Made by a program: the position numbers and the translations under genes. This document shows positions 30,993 through 37,911 of a DNA stretch of 38,016 bases, one piece after another (the stretch's first letter is position 1; the number at the start of each line of letters is the position of its first letter). A model generated the notes under the pieces. That model ran no database searches. It was not told where the DNA came from and was given only the letters and a program-made list of their open reading frames with translations. Origin of the DNA: Synechococcales cyanobacterium bin59.metabat.ball.084 (GTDB lineage: Bacteria > Cyanobacteriota > Cyanobacteriia > Cyanobacteriales > Chamaesiphonaceae); contig JAAFHZ010000032.1 of assembly GCA_013297675.1 (NCBI GenBank), forward strand, positions 1 to 38,016, in the 5' to 3' direction.

Positions 30993-33900
30993 CTACAAAT
31001 CAATGAAAGCTTTTGTACAAGCACCTAATGTAACCAAAGTTGTTTGAGTGGCGATCGATAACCCGCTCACCCCCGCAATCTGCATTCCCTCATAGGGCTT
31101 GGACATGATCAGGGTTGCTTGGCATTCCCCGGTCTGTAAATCCCAAATTTTAATGGTTTCATCTTGACCACAGCTAAACAGCGTTTGTAGGTCAGGGCTG
31201 TAACATAGTGACCAAATACCCTGACTATGACCTTCCAGAATTCTTAAACATTCTCCCAGGGCTACATCCCAAATTCTAATCGTCAGGTCATCACTAGCAC
31301 TAACCAGCAGTTCGGGAGTGGTGGCTGATGCCGGAATAAAGATTACTGTGCGAATTTCGCGATGGTGGCCAGAAAAAGTTTGTAAACAGCTCTGCTGCTC
31401 TACATCCCACAGTTTAATTGTTAAATCATCGCTACTGCTGGCTAATTTAGTACCGCTGGCATTAAATACGATCGAGCGAATACGCTGTTGATGACCGGTG
31501 AGAATATGGGTAATTTTGCCATTATATTTGTCACGAAGTTCGATCTGTTCGCTGACTCCAGTTACAGCTAGCAAGGAAAGATGAGGATGAGTAGCGATCG
31601 CCCAGATCCAAACGGTATCTAGTTCTGGTAAGGATTGGGCGGTACTGGTGGCAATATTCCAGCGCAAAATTGTTCGATCGTCGGCGGCGCTAATGAGGGT
31701 TTGGTCATCTTGGTCAAATATTACTGACCACACCCAGTCGGTATGTTGATCGTAAGTAGTGAGGCATTCGCTGGTAGCTACATCCCAGATTTTAATGGTG
31801 CGATCGTGGCTGCCGCTAGCTAAGAGTTTGCCACTGGGGCTAAAGGCTAATGAGCGAATACGGCCTTGATGACCTTTGAGGGTTTGGAGTAGCTCACCGG
31901 TGGCAGCATTCCAAAGTCTAATTTGGCAATCATCGCTACCGCTGGCTAAGTAAACGATGCCCGAAGATGTAAGAGAACTAACGGCGATCGTCCAAATTCG
32001 GTTGGAGGCTCCAGTGAGGGTTTTAATTGGTTGGCTGGTTTTGGTGTCCCAAATACGCACTAGTTGATCATCGCTGCCTACCGCTATCATAGTTTGGTCA
32101 GAGCTGTAAGAGATCGATCGGATGCGGCTGCGGGGTTCAATCATGGTGGCGATCGGTTGCCAGGTATTAGCATTCCAAATTTGAATTTTGTCGGTGCCTG
32201 CGCTAATTAATTGTTGACCGTCAGGACTGAAGCTTAGTGACCAGATGGCGCTGTTTGCAGGTAATTTGCAGGTTTTGATACATTCGCCGCTTTGGAGATC
32301 CCAAATTTTGATGTAAAAATCGTCACTACCTACTAAAGTTTTGCCGTTGGGATGAAAGGCGAGGGCGCGGACTCGATCGGCATTGTCGGTAAAGGTTTTA
32401 AGGCATCTCCTGGTCAGGACACTCCAGAGCTTGACATACTCAGTACTACTGGTGGCCAATAGGCGACCATTGTTGCCAAAGGCTACCGACCAAACTAGCT
32501 CTTGGGGCTGACTAAAAGCGCGGATCAATTTGCCGAAGTTGATGTTCCACAAGCGGGCGGTGCGATCTTGGCTAACGCTGATTAAAAAAAGAATTCCTTT
32601 GACAGCGATAAATTTAGCTGACCAAACCCAGTCGGTGTGTCCTGGCAGGTTGTAGAGACAGTGAATGTTTCCCCAGTCTGGGGTTTCACGCTGGGATATT
32701 GCACTGTGGGGGATTTTCCAGATTTTGACGCTGCGATCGTTGCTGCAACTGGCGATTAATTGACCATCGGGGCTAAAGGTAACATGTCTAATCCAGTCGT
32801 CATGTGCTAGCCATGCGTGGATTTGTTTGCCATCAGCGACTTGCCAAATGCGGATTTTGCCATCCATGCCGCCAGTAACTAAGATGCGTTGGTCGAGGCT
32901 GAAGGTGACGGTAAAAATGCTGCCGAGGTCTTGGGAAAAGATGGTTTGGTCAAAATGGCAGCGGGTGAAGTTGACTTGATGGAGTTGTGCTTGTTGGAGG
33001 TAGGCTTGACGAATGGTGAGATGGGAGAAGTCGTAGCCGGTGAGATCAATATTAAGGGCTAATAAAAGGTTGATAATGTTGCCGATCGCGTAGCCGGTGG
33101 GATATGTAGATTGCTGGCGAAATTGTTGGATGATTGCTTGAAGATTTTCGGCAACTGTAGTGATATTTTGGTGGTTACTGATTTTTTGGCCGATCGGGGT
33201 GAGTAATAGCTTCTTTTGGGCGTCGCGAATATATTCTTTGGCGGTGGCCTGCATGATGGCGTGGGTGCGCAAAAAGTGAAATTTGTAGCTAGTGAATTCT
33301 TGGGCGATCGATTTAATCAGTCGATCGGTGGCATATTCCATAATCACGTTTTGGAGAGTAAAGCTAGGAACGCTGTGTAAATGGTTGGCCTGAATAAGTC
33401 CTCGATCGTGGAGGGAATTCAGGGCAGCGGTAATATCCAAATCTTCGTGATCTTCTTCTAGGCTGTCATCATTGAGAGTTTGAATAGTGACTGGTTCCCG
33501 GTGGATGGCTAGCCAATAGATGACCGAGGTTTCGGCGGGGTTCAGTCGATCAAATTGGGATTGTAGTAGTGGTCTAATCTGACCGACGGCAAAGCCGGAG
33601 GCTTGGGAGAAGCTGTGAATGCTGCCATAGAGGTTTTTGATGGTTTCGGTAACTATTTCTAGAGCCAGGGGGTTGCCTTGATATTTATTGATCAGCCAGT
33701 CAATTTCTGGCTTGGTGCCAGTGATACCCCGATCAGTGAAGATTTGGCTAGCTTGTTGGATACCAGTGAGTTGAATGGTGCGAATGGTATTGCTTTGAAT
33801 TTGACGCAGGCTATGGGGCTGTTCGCGGCTAGTGATCATTAGGCAGCTTTGGTGGCTGGCTTTACCAATTTCTTGGAAGAGCTTTTCGTAGTCGTTAGTT

Positions 33901-34580
33901 GCTGATGGGGTATGTGGCAAGATTGATTCGATGTTGTCGAGGATAATCAGGCAACGATGTTGTTTGAGTTGTTGGATGAGGAGTTCGATTTGGCTAGAGA
34001 GATCCAAAGGCAGTTGGAGAGATTGGTGTTGGGTGAGATGTTTGATGATGTCGCTGATAATTTTTGCCGCGCTGGGGGCTTCCCGGAGGCTGCGCCAGAT
34101 GATGTGTTCAAATTCGGGGCTAAGGTTTTGGGCAATTTTGGTGGCGATCGATGTTTTACCGATGCCGCCAATTCCAAGAATAGTGATTAACTGGGTTTGT
34201 TCTTGGTTAATCCATTGTTGAACGGTGTTGATTTCGGCGCTGCGATCGAGTAAAAGTTTCAGGGGAGGCGCTGCGCCCCAGTCATGATTTGTAGTTGTTT
34301 TTTGAGATGCAGTGACGGTTTCTTGCCAGGGTATGTCTAGGATTTGGCAGAAGGCTTTGTATGTTGTTGGTCTGATGGGTTTTCCGGCCAGGAAGCGTTT
34401 CCAGGTGCCGATCGAGACTTCTAGTTGGATGGTTTCATTCCAGTTATCCCATTTTGGGGCGGGTTCAAGGATTTTGCTGGCGGCAACTAGCCATTTGGGG
34501 TCATCGATCGGCCAACCAATTTCGATGCGGGTCTGTCTGATGCGTTGGAGCTGCTCGGGAGTGGCTTGGAGGCTGGACAT
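30993..34580 (-). CDS. NB-ARC STAND NTPase with 14 WD40 repeats
   Basis: The 1195-residue protein has an N-terminal helical/HTH-like region (1-95, with GTWKRFLAGKPIRPTTYKAFCQIL), an NB-ARC NTPase with P-loop ILGIGGIGKTS (Lys142) and Walker B LIILDNIES (Asp215), a winged-helix and linker region, and from about residue 555 fourteen WD40 repeats, enough for two seven-bladed propellers. The end SKPYEGMQIAGVSGLS is a tail common to cyanobacterial NB-ARC/WD40 proteins. It has the Apaf-1 layout: propellers sense, NB-ARC oligomerises, the N-terminus signals. No effector enzyme is obvious, so the N-terminal region may recruit one. A defence or programmed-death role is inferred from class and neighbours. 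Confidence 0.9.
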   Translation of the reverse strand: MSSLQATPEQLQRIRQTRIEIGWPIDDPKWLVAASKILEPAPKWDNWNETIQLEVSIGTWKRFLAGKPIRPTTYKAFCQILDIPWQETVTASQKTTTNHDWGAAPPLKLLLDRSAEINTVQQWINQEQTQLITILGIGGIGKTSIATKIAQNLSPEFEHIIWRSLREAPSAAKIISDIIKHLTQHQSLQLPLDLSSQIELLIQQLKQHRCLIILDNIESILPHTPSATNDYEKLFQEIGKASHQSCLMITSREQPHSLRQIQSNTIRTIQLTGIQQASQIFTDRGITGTKPEIDWLINKYQGNPLALEIVTETIKNLYGSIHSFSQASGFAVGQIRPLLQSQFDRLNPAETSVIYWLAIHREPVTIQTLNDDSLEEDHEDLDITAALNSLHDRGLIQANHLHSVPSFTLQNVIMEYATDRLIKSIAQEFTSYKFHFLRTHAIMQATAKEYIRDAQKKLLLTPIGQKISNHQNITTVAENLQAIIQQFRQQSTYPTGYAIGNIINLLLALNIDLTGYDFSHLTIRQAYLQQAQLHQVNFTRCHFDQTIFSQDLGSIFTVTFSLDQRILVTGGMDGKIRIWQVADGKQIHAWLAHDDWIRHVTFSPDGQLIASCSNDRSVKIWKIPHSAISQRETPDWGNIHCLYNLPGHTDWVWSAKFIAVKGILFLISVSQDRTARLWNINFGKLIRAFSQPQELVWSVAFGNNGRLLATSSTEYVKLWSVLTRRCLKTFTDNADRVRALAFHPNGKTLVGSDDFYIKIWDLQSGECIKTCKLPANSAIWSLSFSPDGQQLISAGTDKIQIWNANTWQPIATMIEPRSRIRSISYSSDQTMIAVGSDDQLVRIWDTKTSQPIKTLTGASNRIWTIAVSSLTSSGIVYLASGSDDCQIRLWNAATGELLQTLKGHQGRIRSLAFSPSGKLLASGSHDRTIKIWDVATSECLTTYDQHTDWVWSVIFDQDDQTLISAADDRTILRWNIATSTAQSLPELDTVWIWAIATHPHLSLLAVTGVSEQIELRDKYNGKITHILTGHQQRIRSIVFNASGTKLASSSDDLTIKLWDVEQQSCLQTFSGHHREIRTVIFIPASATTPELLVSASDDLTIRIWDVALGECLRILEGHSQGIWSLCYSPDLQTLFSCGQDETIKIWDLQTGECQATLIMSKPYEGMQIAGVSGLSIATQTTLVTLGACTKAFIDL

Positions 34581-34681
34581 GGCAATTGCACCTATTTAAA
34601 AACAGGCTGGACGGATGCCTGTGATTTAGGAATTGCCAACCCCATCGAATATTGTAGTATTACATTACATGAGGTCGTTGA

Positions 34682-34945
34682 TCAATTTTGAGCAGATTTA
34701 AAGTGTTCAATCAGTTCTTGCTTGGAGAGCTGAAAAATTAATGGAGTGTATTCGATACTGGTAAGGGTCATGAGCTTAGGTAGGATGGCGGTGAGTTGTT
34801 CGTCGATCGATTCATAGCGCAGTTCCAAGAGTCCAGAAATAGCCGATCGACGCTCCTGTTCTAAGCCTTGAGTTAAACCTTGTTCAAGCCCCTGTTCAAG
34901 TCCTTGTTCAATGCCACGTTCCATCCAGCTAGTGGTTAATTGCAT
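34682..34945 (-). CDS. RpnS-like internal ORF in the broken Rpn copy
   Basis: An ATG at 34945 in the C-terminal frame is preceded by AGGAG with a 6-nt spacer, a good internal ribosome site. It would give 87 residues: MQLTTSWMERGIEQGLEQ, the repeat segment, then the conserved RRSAISGLLELRYESIDE C-terminal domain. In E. coli, Rpn genes produce a small C-terminal protein (RpnS) from an internal start that inhibits the full-length nuclease. This frame is intact although the nuclease part is broken. Expression is inferred, not shown. Confidence 0.4.
   Translation of the reverse strand: MQLTTSWMERGIEQGLEQGLEQGLTQGLEQERRSAISGLLELRYESIDEQLTAILPKLMTLTSIEYTPLIFQLSKQELIEHFKSAQN
34856..34915 (-). repeat. 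Five 12-bp tandem units in the Rpn pseudogene
   Basis: Five imperfect 12-bp units encode GIEQ, GLEQ, GLEQ, GLTQ, GLEQ. The intact neighbour has a single unit at the same place. Rpn genes are known for such length variation in this linker, so this is a small variable tandem repeat. Confidence 0.8.
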
Positions 34946-35633
34946 GATTTTCTCCTGTTCAGCTATTGGTTCTATTTTAGCAATTTCTGTTTGAAAGACT
35001 TGTTCCTCTTTTTGGTTCAGGCGAAGATAGGTGTCCACAAATCCTGAAATCAAAAAATTCCTGGCGGGATCTAGTTGCAGGTTGGCTAAGAGGCGGAGGC
35101 ATTCGATCAAAGGAGAAAATAGCAATTGGGTAGATGGGGATGCGGTATTGGCGGTAAAGTTCAGCGAAGTAAAAGAAGATGCGTTGGGCGAAGTCTGTTT
35201 CGCTGGTGGATTGGTTTTCGATGTGGACGAGGATGGTGTGGGTGGGTTGAGAGTTGGTGATTTTGTGAGGCTTGACGGGTAATTGCACGAGGATATCAAT
35301 GGCTTTGCGGTCGCCGTCGATGATGTCGGTGAAGTATTGTTGGGGAAGGAAGGTGAGTTGGGTTAGGTCTAAATGTTCGGTGAGGGCGGGGGCAAAGAGT
35401 TGGATAAAATCTACGAAGAAGGTTTCTAGAAGTTGCTTGAAGAGTTGGTCGTGATCTATTGCTGAAGTCATGACTTGGAGTAATGCTAACTTTGCTCTTC
35501 TAATTTGCTGAATCTTGCTTGATCGCCTTTGGCGCAAGCAAATCTATCGGCGGCCTGAGCGTATCTGAGGACAATTCTCAGTATCTGCTCTGACCGGGCA
35601 ATATTTCGGGTAGTCTCCGCCGCAAGAGTTGTG

Positions 35634-35849
35634 TCAATTGTGAGTAACTTTGAAGTGTTGGATGAGTTCTTGTTTGGAGAGCTGAAAGATGAGAGGAGTG
35701 TATTCGACGCTGGTAAGGGTCATCAGGATAGGTAGGATGGCGGTGAGTTGTTCATCGATCGAGCCATAGCGCAATTCCAAGAGTCCAGAAATAGCCGATC
35801 GACGTTCCTGTTCAAGGCCGCGCTCCATCCAACTAGTAGTTAATTCCAT
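35634..35849 (-). CDS. RpnS-like internal ORF in the intact Rpn gene
   Basis: An in-frame ATG at 35849 is preceded by AGGAG with a 6-nt spacer. It would give a 71-residue protein, MELTTSWMERGLEQ followed by the C-terminal domain. The same signal and position occur in the broken copy (34945) despite base changes in the spacer. By analogy with RpnS of E. coli this small product could inhibit the nuclease. Not proven: the AGGAG also arises from the coding sequence for Glu-Gln-Glu. Confidence 0.42.
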   Translation of the reverse strand: MELTTSWMERGLEQERRSAISGLLELRYGSIDEQLTAILPILMTLTSVEYTPLIFQLSKQELIQHFKVTHN

Positions 35850-36557
35850 GATTTGCTCCTGTTCGTTAACTGTTTGTATTTTAGCAATTTCTTCTCGAAA
35901 GACTTGCTCTTCATTGTTATTCAATCGCAGATAGGTATCAACAAAACTAGAAATCAAGAAATTTCGAGCTGGGTCTAATTGAAGGTTAACGAGTAATCGC
36001 AGACATTCAACCTTGACTTTGGGGCGATCTTTTTCATCAATACTCATTTTGGCCATGAGAGCTGCGGCTACTGGATTTTGATATTGGAGAAAATCTCGCC
36101 AGTTGAGTCGATTGAGCTGGATTGATTGAAAGTTGAATGTCAACACATCAAGCTCTGCTAGAGCAATGCGATACTGATTGGGTTCTGAGCGCTCGGGTTC
36201 ATCGAAGGAAAAGACAGCGATGGGATAAACGGGTAAGCGGTATTCTCGATGAAGTTCAGCAAAGTAGAAGAACATGCGCTGGTTAAATCTTGCTTTGCTG
36301 GTAGATTGGTTTTCAATGTGTACAAGAATCGTGTGAATTGAGCGTTGAACATCTATTTGACTCTCTTTAATTGGCACCTGCACTAAGATGTCGATCGCTT
36401 TCCGTTCACCATCAACAATGTCGGTAAAATATTGTTGAGGTAGAAATATTAACTCAGAAAGATCCAAATATTTGGAGAGCGTGGGGGCAAAGAGTTCGAT
36501 AAAATCCGCGAAAAAGGTTTCTAAGAGCTGTTTGAAGAGTTGGTCATGGTCAATCAT
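35634..36557 (-). CDS. Rpn-family PD-(D/E)XK nuclease (recombination-promoting nuclease)
   Basis: I start at the ATG at 36557 (MIDHDQLFKQLLETFF), which matches the family and the other copy; the open frame upstream adds an unrelated 28 residues. The 307-residue protein has the restriction-like core: FLPQQYFTDIVDGERKAIDI with the catalytic Asp, HTILVHIENQS (ExQ), and QRMFFYFAELHREY. The C-terminal part has the GLEQ linker and a helical dimerisation domain. Rpn proteins are DNA endonucleases related to IS605-neighbour transposases of the PDDEXK type; in E. coli they are toxic and give phage defence, held in check by an internal small protein. The copy is intact. Confidence 0.88.
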   Translation of the reverse strand: MIDHDQLFKQLLETFFADFIELFAPTLSKYLDLSELIFLPQQYFTDIVDGERKAIDILVQVPIKESQIDVQRSIHTILVHIENQSTSKARFNQRMFFYFAELHREYRLPVYPIAVFSFDEPERSEPNQYRIALAELDVLTFNFQSIQLNRLNWRDFLQYQNPVAAALMAKMSIDEKDRPKVKVECLRLLVNLQLDPARNFLISSFVDTYLRLNNNEEQVFREEIAKIQTVNEQEQIMELTTSWMERGLEQERRSAISGLLELRYGSIDEQLTAILPILMTLTSVEYTPLIFQLSKQELIQHFKVTHN

Positions 36558-37092
36558 CGTAGAAGTAAGCGAAGCTGGTGTAAGTGGGTCCATGGATGGT
36601 GGCATGGCCTGGGGTATAAGGCGGGATGGGAACTGAATCAATTGTAGTACGCATAGTTTATCATGTTGTCCCTTGAAGTGGATTGGGCGATCGGGGTGTA
36701 TCTCTAGAAGAGAATCAGCAGCTCACAATTAAGGGGCAATTATTGCCTTGAATGTTAAAGGTTGTAAATTTTTCAATGGACTTGGGGTATCGATCGAGCT
36801 GATAAATAGCAAGCAGAGATGAAGAATCTGCAATTTGTTTGATTGGGCTGGGATGTTGTAATGCCATGGTTTTCGGTTGGGGAGGTAGTCGGACTTACTA
36901 GGTAATTGGTGGGTCATTTTGCTGGGGTTTGCGGTGGGTAGGGCTAAAAGTGATCCGAAACTGTGCTTGTTGGATTTTTAGGTAAGACACATAATGCCCT
37001 AGAGAACTGCTAGTGCGATCGAATCATTGTTATTGACAGAATTTTGGAAATAGATCGCGCTCACAACATAACTACTTTTAGAGGCTCTACCC
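36558..37092. other. Intergenic region before the Calx-beta gene
   Basis: No gene is supported in these 535 bp. A 62-residue minus-strand frame at 36729-36917 has no recognisable features and I do not accept it. A TTGACA box lies at 37033-37038 upstream of the Calx-beta gene, but no good -10 box follows at 16-18 bp. Upstream of the Rpn start I see no clear promoter. Confidence 0.4.
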
Positions 37093-37911
37093 ATGGCATT
37101 ACCTAATATCACTGTTGCTCCTGGTCTCAATGCGATCGAAGGCGGCACTTTCGGTGAATTTATTATCACTTTGGATGCTCCAGCTCCGACTGGGGGTTTG
37201 ATTGTTAAGTTTGCGGTTGCTGGCAGCAGCACTGCTACAGCTAATACTGATTATACTTTTGGTGCTGGTAACAATATTACTTCTTTGACTGCTAACACCT
37301 TTACTGTTGCAGCCGGTGCTACTACTGCTACTATTCGGGTAAATGCTCCGATCGATGGGGTGTTTGATCCCAATGAAACTATTACACTGAATCTTACAGA
37401 TTCAGTGAAGTATTCACCTACTTCTCTTTTTAATGCCGGAAACAGACCGATGTCCGTAACATCTGCCGATATTAATCGTGATGGAAAAGTTGACTTAATC
37501 GTAGCTAATGGTTATGACGATATAACTAAGCAAGTAGGCGGGGTATCGATTCTCTACGGTAACGGCAGTGAGGGGTATTCATCTCCTAGTTTTATCGGGA
37601 ATGGTCTGTCAGGAGCCAGTGCAGTGGCTGTGTTCGATTTTAATGGTGATGGTATATTAGATATTGTAACAACTGATAGCGGACGAGATGTTGAACGGAA
37701 TGTAGGTAAGGTTTCAGTTCTACTGGGTACTAGTACTGGTGGTTTTAGTGTTTCTCAAATATTGAGTGCTGGCCCTTGGCTTAAATCAGTTGCAGTAGGT
37801 GATTTTAATGGAGATAGTAAATCTGATTTGGTTGTAACAAGTTTTGACATTACTGCGCCTTCTGAGAGTCCTAAAATCTCAATATTCAATATTAGACCTG
37901 TCGGGAAATAA
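37093..37911 (+). pseudogene. Calx-beta/FG-GAP surface-type protein, 3' part cut by an IS
   Basis: The frame has an N-terminal Calx-beta domain (about 1-110: VAPGLNAIEGGTFGEFIITL, DYTFGAGNN, DGVFDPNETITLNL) followed by three FG-GAP/VCBS units with calcium-binding loops DINRDGKVDL, DFNGDGILDI and DFNGDSKSDL. These are typical of large secreted or RTX-like adhesins in cyanobacteria, which usually exceed 500 residues and have no N-terminal signal peptide, consistent with type I export. After KISIF the similarity ends and seven unrelated residues (NIRPVGK) lead to a stop; IS-like sequence starts at about 37894. I infer that an IS inserted in the gene and removed its distal repeats. Confidence 0.75.

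Follow-up and report, generated by a model that had tools for sequence, protein, structure and literature searches.

Can a cyanobacterial Rpn nuclease gene hold, within its own codons, the gene for its inhibitor? The question is raised by two Rpn-family genes, copies A and B, arranged in tandem on the minus strand of a 38,016-nt stretch of contig JAAFHZ010000032.1 from Synechococcales cyanobacterium bin59.metabat.ball.084 (the window, in its full length), with copy A downstream of copy B in the direction of transcription. Each copy carries the Shine-Dalgarno (SD) motif AGGAG, a 6-nt spacer and an ATG in frame with the Rpn C-terminus, at 34945 in copy A and 35849 in copy B, from which proteins of 87 and 71 residues would be made. 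This arrangement, pointed out in an original prediction made from the sequence, is exact in both copies, and the signal is indeed kept while the spacer changes, by one base (AAAATC in copy A, CAAATC in copy B). The two copies alone provide no independent evidence for an internal start, because they are paralogues. In Escherichia coli, full-length RpnL is a toxic nuclease, and RpnS, made from an internal start, binds and blocks it, as described in the main text of Zhong et al. 2023 (PMC10327210). A nested antitoxin gene of the RpnS type is the best explanation of the cyanobacterial genes and a highly probable one: selection acts on the internal signal beyond the protein level, initiation at the conserved ATG is strongly supported by the comparison of homologues, and the small protein would act as an antitoxin by homology with E. 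coli RpnS.

Selection on the internal Shine-Dalgarno motif and start codon

Homologues of copy B were gathered from the same order and class, and part of the listed matches was fetched. The 191 blastp hits, located in 189 loci, yielded 162 distinct sequences spanning the site and 117 at an 85% identity limit; this set, the window's branch, includes copy B and leaves out the broken copy A. With an SD core defined as GGAG, GAGG or AGGA at -15 to -5 from a start, 104 of the 117 homologues have such a core ahead of the internal start, whereas among the 603 other ATGs in the interior of these genes only 22 have one. The internal Met column consists of ATG in 113 sequences, GTG in two, and CTG and CAG in one each, the CAG case having an ATG one codon later.

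The codons that form the motif are held at their silent positions. The residue at codon -4 varies (Gln, Arg, Lys, Glu, Trp), yet its third base is G in 100 of 116 sequences (one Trp left out), where the codon usage of each gene predicts 39.6; at codon -3, G is found in 96 of 117 against 41.1 expected on the same basis. These are the two strongest silent-site constraints among about 297 alignment columns (z 12.3 and 10.7), and the Glu/Gln-rich codons immediately downstream, from +1 to +14, display no comparable excess of G (highest z 2.0). A point on the other side is that the z-scores are overdispersed, with remote columns reaching 6-9 (7.6 at -266, 8.9 at +53), so that a pair test is taken as the safer number. 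In this test, 54 pairs of 70-95% identity were formed from the 162 sequences, each sequence entering one pair only; comparisons at the SD codons comprised those with the same Glu, Lys or Gln in both members, and control codons lay more than 12 codons away. Silent differences are present in 2 of 77 comparisons at the two SD codons and in 559 of 2404 elsewhere (Fisher p 1e-6). Synonymous changes that break the motif thus fall well below the normal rate, and the conservation of AGGAG and ATG beyond synonymous expectation, which the original prediction had put forward as a check, is borne out. In pairs with the residue at -4 replaced, both members retain G-ending codons (11/11). Pairing with the anti-SD sequence averages -8.4 kcal/mol, compared with -4.6 for synonymous resampling (Wilcoxon p 3e-20; the sequences are related). 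Inside the small-protein part, 53 columns after the internal Met, the window's branch also has a silent-site bias towards T (57/117 against 23.0 expected, z 8.9).

Named genomes gave 70 open reading frames in 68 of 80 loci, 62 of them redundant with the first set, and seven new sequences. All seven have the ATG and the T/A/T triplet of the upstream hexamer described below, with G at -4 in five and at -3 in five. With redundancy kept, the site is present in 79 of the 80 named loci, with ATG in 79/79 and an SD core in 74/79. Both SD motif and ATG are found, for example, in Synechocystis salina LEGE 00031 (L269), Nostoc carneum NIES-2107 (L273), which also has the hexamer, and Calothrix brevissima NIES-22 (L275).

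A second, distant branch of cyanobacterial Rpn proteins, about 25-30% identical to copy B, was collected with locus L043 as the query (81 hits, of which 78 were retained and 67 remained at an identity limit of 85%). The local sequence differs there, being mostly E-E/Q-E-x-x-M-P-Y. An SD core precedes the corresponding Met in all 67 sequences, compared with 5 of 319 other interior ATGs. The third base of codon -4 is G in 61 of the 67 sequences, where 25.1 would be expected, and that of codon -5 in 51, where 26.3 would be; among 297 columns the two rank first and third. The Met column is divided into 58 ATG and 9 GTG. Across both branches, valine at the internal-Met position is always written GTG (11/11), a codon that makes up 27-30% of valine codons in these genes. 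Other columns with at least 75% Met are replaced mostly by Ile or Leu, with valine in three listed cases, and less conserved Met columns pass to other residues. GTG as the sole common substitute is the pattern expected of a start codon and not of a methionine.

Several further observations weigh against a general internal start. Taken gene by gene, SD pairing reaches p<0.05 in only 20 of the 117 homologues; at a 60% identity limit, which leaves 28 sequences, G is found at -4 in 23, at -3 in 21 and at both in 18, and ATG in 24. The signal is lost in the lineage of L030 and L116 (CTG for ATG; GAA GCC at the SD place), Leptolyngbya sp. PCC 7375 (L260) has the ATG without an SD motif, and anti-SD pairing is weak in L045, from the same genus, and in L003, from the window's own genome. 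The 3' end of 16S rRNA was not found in that draft genome; the anti-SD sequence is present in 8 of 20 relatives checked. The second-best column of the distant branch is the remote position -116 (A in 59/67 against 24.8 expected, z 9.0). The SD signal, as read from these alignments, is strong, though not universal. L030 and L116, which belong to two genomes of the same genus (G039 and G062), are a natural example of a lost nested start, with an internal stop in the L030 copy as well.

A promoter-like element ahead of the internal start

The third-base scan of the window's branch reveals an extra signal 7-12 codons upstream of the internal Met. At -31 to -26, the 117 sequences have a TAnAAT-like hexamer (T in 89, A in 96, any base, A in 81, A or T, T in 104), whose T/A/T triplet is complete in 80. 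An A at -19, seven bases past the hexamer, is found in 91; transcription usually starts about 7 bases after a -10 hexamer. Arg codons inside the hexamer are AGA or AGG in 28 of 31 cases, though these make up 19% of Arg codons in these genes. Good hexamers (score of at least 5 on a -10 matrix) are found at -31 in 58 sequences, and no other offset between -120 and -6 has them in more than 9. In the two window copies, TAAAAT lies one codon farther upstream than the branch norm, with an A at the right distance (Table 1). An internal promoter in the window's branch, giving the small protein a transcript with a 19-22-nt leader, is probable on this pattern.

The promoter assignment is weakened by three results: no -35 element is visible by eye at the predicted promoter, a promoter scan of 34500-36900 gives three sites (3.4 in shuffled sequence) with none at the predicted hexamer, and the distant branch has no sharp hexamer peak. 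One of the scanned sites lies inside copy B (35941-35913, minus strand), ending 64 nt before the internal ATG; the site count of the region equals chance, and none of 116 homologues has a good hexamer at that offset. A different origin of the A/T-rich third positions, selection that keeps the mRNA weakly structured near the internal start, would account for the A/T preference at several such positions and for the missing -35 element. It would also suit other near-start offsets, such as -36, -29 and -20, which likewise exceed synonymous resampling in relative terms, with poor hexamers. Low structure alone does not explain why good hexamers keep to one phase, why Arg is AGR and not CGN, why an A stands 7 nt past the hexamer, or why positions -13 and -16 have little or no A/T excess, and this origin is considered unlikely, though it keeps appreciable weight. 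In E. coli, according to an earlier differential RNA sequencing study cited in the main text of PMC10327210, an internal transcript start exists in all rpn genes. A passage of PMC10469882 places the internal transcription start of EDL933 rpnB 650 bp past the start codon, which corresponds to a leader of about 80 nt (internal ATG at 730, with the K-12 annotated start assumed), in contrast to the 19-22 nt predicted here. The -10-like element provides a base-resolved prediction for transcript-start data.

Relation to RpnL and RpnS and the weighing of alternatives

Membership of copy B in the Rpn family is indicated by the TIGR01784 profile, which matches copy B at E 3.6e-5 (23.7 bits, under the curated cut-off of 52.1) and 15 of 16 scanned clade members at E<=0.001, the best at 2.3e-15. 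The residues D56, E82 and Q84 of the D...ExQ nuclease core, which we take to be catalytic as in the family, are invariant in 16/16 clade members, and IENQS of the cyanobacterial proteins aligns with IEHQS of RpnA. Other searches were less informative. No Pfam family exceeds its cut-off on the window proteins, the best nuclease-type match being Transposase_31 to the N-terminal part of copy A (E 0.0038). The full-length profile retrieves six weak matches from PDB sequences, judged unrelated (best: amyloid precursor chains, E 0.0037). The full-length model has no Foldseek match at E<=0.001, with the nucleases 2vld, BstEII and EcoO109I among the weaker rows. Rfam found none, and the sole PADLOC match is a 'putative invertase' model (6/16).

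The internal signals of the five K-12 genes, read directly, are AAGGAG-AGTTTA-ATG in rpnA, AAGGAG-AAACTG-ATG in rpnB, AAGGAG-AGATTA-ATG in rpnE, AGGGAG-CGAATA-ATG in rpnD and GGGGAG-TCTATG-ATG in rpnC (counted to the second of two ATGs). All five have the register xxG-GAG-N6-ATG of the window's branch, together with a Gly ten residues after the internal Met, which is shared by 113 of the 117 cyanobacterial homologues. The repeats of copies A and B begin 11 residues after the Met, inside the 8-20 residues given for E. coli RpnS in the main text of PMC10327210. According to the same text, all five E. coli small proteins were detected, free rpnS copies exist, and DUF4351 is tied to RpnS. Both systems have variable C-terminal domains, and broken or free copies that retain the small protein (rpnD, ypaA). 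The differences are the phylum, a profile match to RpnA that spans only the N-terminal 85 aligned columns at 31% identity, and a cyanobacterial C-terminus that usually matches DUF4351, the type found in the window having no match in Pfam. The original prediction had further suggested that the intragenic RpnS-type design extends to cyanobacteria; the silent-site constraint and the identical register in rpnA-E support such an extension.

At the level of the small protein, DUF4351 matches 29 of 34 C-terminal segments, and a few short forms resemble the E. coli ones. PDB 7TH0, a three-helix bundle, comprises RpnA 244-292, its first residue being the internal Met. When two E. coli-like clade segments were compared with it by sequence search, one aligned colinearly (3-44 to 3-44) at a weak E of 0.28 and the other was unlisted. 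The model of the copy B segment is all-helical, with four helices and a mean pLDDT of 82, and the length of the repeat tract varies among homologues. Two results lend the RpnS assignment no support: the C-terminus of copy B itself matches no Pfam family, DUF4351 included, and a structure comparison of its small protein with 10 chains gave no row for 7TH0 and a best Z of 4.3, uninformative for small helical proteins.

An internal start may be real and its product something other than an antitoxin, namely a structural partner of the nuclease or a free regulator. The main text of PMC10327210 cites a case for this in a cyanobacterial gene: Cas11d of the Synechocystis type I-D CRISPR system, which arises from an internal translation start in the Cas10d gene and has a complementary role. 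Cas10d is a different protein, however, and Cas11d is a needed subunit, not an inhibitor. The cyanobacterial Rpn genes belong to the family of E. coli RpnS, the blocker of RpnL, and have exactly its register and its repeat architecture; a partner or regulator role appears rather improbable. Far less credible is conservation at the protein level only, with Glu-Gln-Glu and Met opening a long helix and AGGAG-ATG as a by-product, a caveat already raised by the original prediction. The site does lie close to where a predicted helix (230-264) begins, and Glu at -3 and Met are highly conserved. Barring a codon-level force of other origin at precisely these codons, this explanation was rejected on the silent-site scan, the pair test and the valine codons: the -4 residue changes under a fixed G, silent changes at the SD codons are about nine times rarer than elsewhere, the similar codons downstream lack the G excess, and valine is GTG only. 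Pausing of ribosomes at purine-rich codons for folding, without initiation, fits the position of the site at the boundary between nuclease part and C-terminal helices and is scarcely tenable, since pausing requires neither an ATG or GTG at a fixed distance nor an upstream -10-like element with an A at -19.

Under the RpnS-type reading, ribosomes would start at the internal ATG behind the conserved SD motif and produce the C-terminal domain alone, as 71 residues from copy B and 87 from copy A. The -10-like element and the start-site A of the window's branch would probably direct a second, short transcript whose leader measures 19-22 nt. Homology with RpnL and RpnS suggests that the small protein would bind its counterpart domain in the full-length nuclease and keep the nuclease inactive until release, and the Rpn gene would act as a one-gene toxin-antitoxin unit, probably against phages.

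Two distant branches of a large cyanobacterial family both carry a measurable mark of selection on the internal signal, so that a gene-within-gene antitoxin is likely an old property of Rpn nucleases. Internal antitoxin starts were already known from E. coli and from one C. difficile gene, cloned on a plasmid and expressed as RpnS in E. coli, according to the main text of PMC10327210, in which the string 'cyanobac' does not occur. A literature search covering few subscription journals found no publication on internal starts within the Rpn genes of cyanobacteria. The occurrence of the RpnL/RpnS kind in Cyanobacteria is probably new, with a probable compact internal promoter as the new detail. 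Cyanobacterial genes annotated as Rpn 'nuclease/putative transposase' may hide missed small proteins in many genomes.

The two Rpn copies and their surroundings

The features of the locus are collected in Table 1; the hexamer rows are based on the constraint in the 117 homologues and on the sequence of the window copies.

Table 1. Positions of the Rpn copies and of their internal signals in the window
Feature	Position	Strand	Details
Copy B, intact Rpn-family nuclease gene, predicted RpnL toxin	35634-36554	minus	306 aa, ATG at 36554
Predicted RpnS-like protein (71 aa), ORF nested in copy B	35634-35849	minus	from internal ATG 35849
Internal Shine-Dalgarno AGGAG, copy B	35856-35860	minus	6-nt spacer CAAATC, then ATG 35849
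Predicted -10 hexamer TAAAAT, copy B	35878-35883	minus	-34 to -29 from internal ATG; predicted transcript start A 35871
Copy A, remnant of second Rpn gene	34682-35471	minus	191-nt frameshifting deletion, junction ~35106/35107
Predicted RpnS-like protein (87 aa), surviving C-terminal unit of copy A	34682-34945	minus	ATG 34945
Shine-Dalgarno AGGAG, copy A	34952-34956	minus	6-nt spacer AAAATC, then ATG 34945
Predicted -10 hexamer TAAAAT, copy A	34974-34979	minus	predicted transcript start A 34967
Four-residue repeat tract IEQG LEQG LEQG LTQG LEQ, copy A	34856-34912	minus	begins 11 residues after internal Met

The original prediction spoke of two tandem Rpn genes, which holds for copy B, an intact gene, and not for copy A, a remnant. 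Relative to copy B and to the intact orthologue of a same-genus genome (G001, L211), 191 nt of the middle are missing from copy A, and its frames are split into an N-terminal part (to ~35107) and a C-terminal part (from 35106), which excludes an intact second gene. An assembly error may be the source of this deletion. In the stretch fetched from G001, a metagenome-assembled genome of Synechococcales, the same WD40 gene region lies downstream of one intact Rpn gene. By region, the DNA of this gene is 86-92% identical to copy A and 72-86% identical to copy B, which makes copy A the broken local orthologue and copy B an additional one. The dN/dS against the G001 orthologue is 0.09 for the small frame of copy A and 0.08 for its dead N-terminal part; as the live and dead parts are alike, the deletion is probably recent, and the low value does not prove that copy A is retained for its antitoxin. 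Between the two window copies, DNA identity is 86% in the nested C-terminal frames, which include an identical run of about 29 nt, and 70% in the N-terminal parts. The higher identity of the nested part suggests gene conversion between the copies or tighter constraint on the small-protein part.

With its nuclease lost by deletion, copy A keeps the promoter-like element, SD motif, start and small-protein frame, in the manner of the free rpnS copies or of the broken rpnD. K-12 rpnD carries an in-frame stop, and its small protein was nevertheless detected, which sets a precedent for copy A. In the E. coli pair rpnE-ypaA, a free rpnS-like frame with its own SD motif lies behind an rpn gene, as copy A lies behind copy B; ypaA has no nuclease part, whereas that of copy A is still there in deleted form, and the repeat tract of copy A exceeds that of copy B by 16 residues. 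Repeat number sets RpnS specificity in E. coli, and by this rule the copy A product is predicted not to inhibit copy B. More tentatively, and with slightly more doubt than confidence, the nuclease codons of the window's branch may contain a complete gene, consisting of promoter with a leader of about 20 nt, SD motif and start, and the nuclease-dead copy A may stand as a free antitoxin beside a live toxin gene, the antitoxin being makeable independently of the toxin.

Elsewhere in the window's own genome (L009, C164, 1366-1719), a free 118-aa frame resembles the C-terminal domain of copy B; it lacks a nuclease part, matches no Pfam family and is possibly a stand-alone RpnS-like gene. In L042, a different protein (331-1293) has a similar repeat-containing C-terminus, and the 134-aa frame directly after this protein (1324-1725) repeats part of that C-terminus, a pair reminiscent of E. 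coli rpnE-ypaA.

Downstream of copy A, 30993-34580 (minus strand) encodes a protein of 1195 aa that has many WD40 repeats and whose N-terminal part looks NTPase-like by eye; synteny with the same-genus genome holds for this region, which is broken into several frames there. On the other side of the Rpn pair and on the opposite strand, 37093-37911 (plus) encodes an FG-GAP repeat protein.

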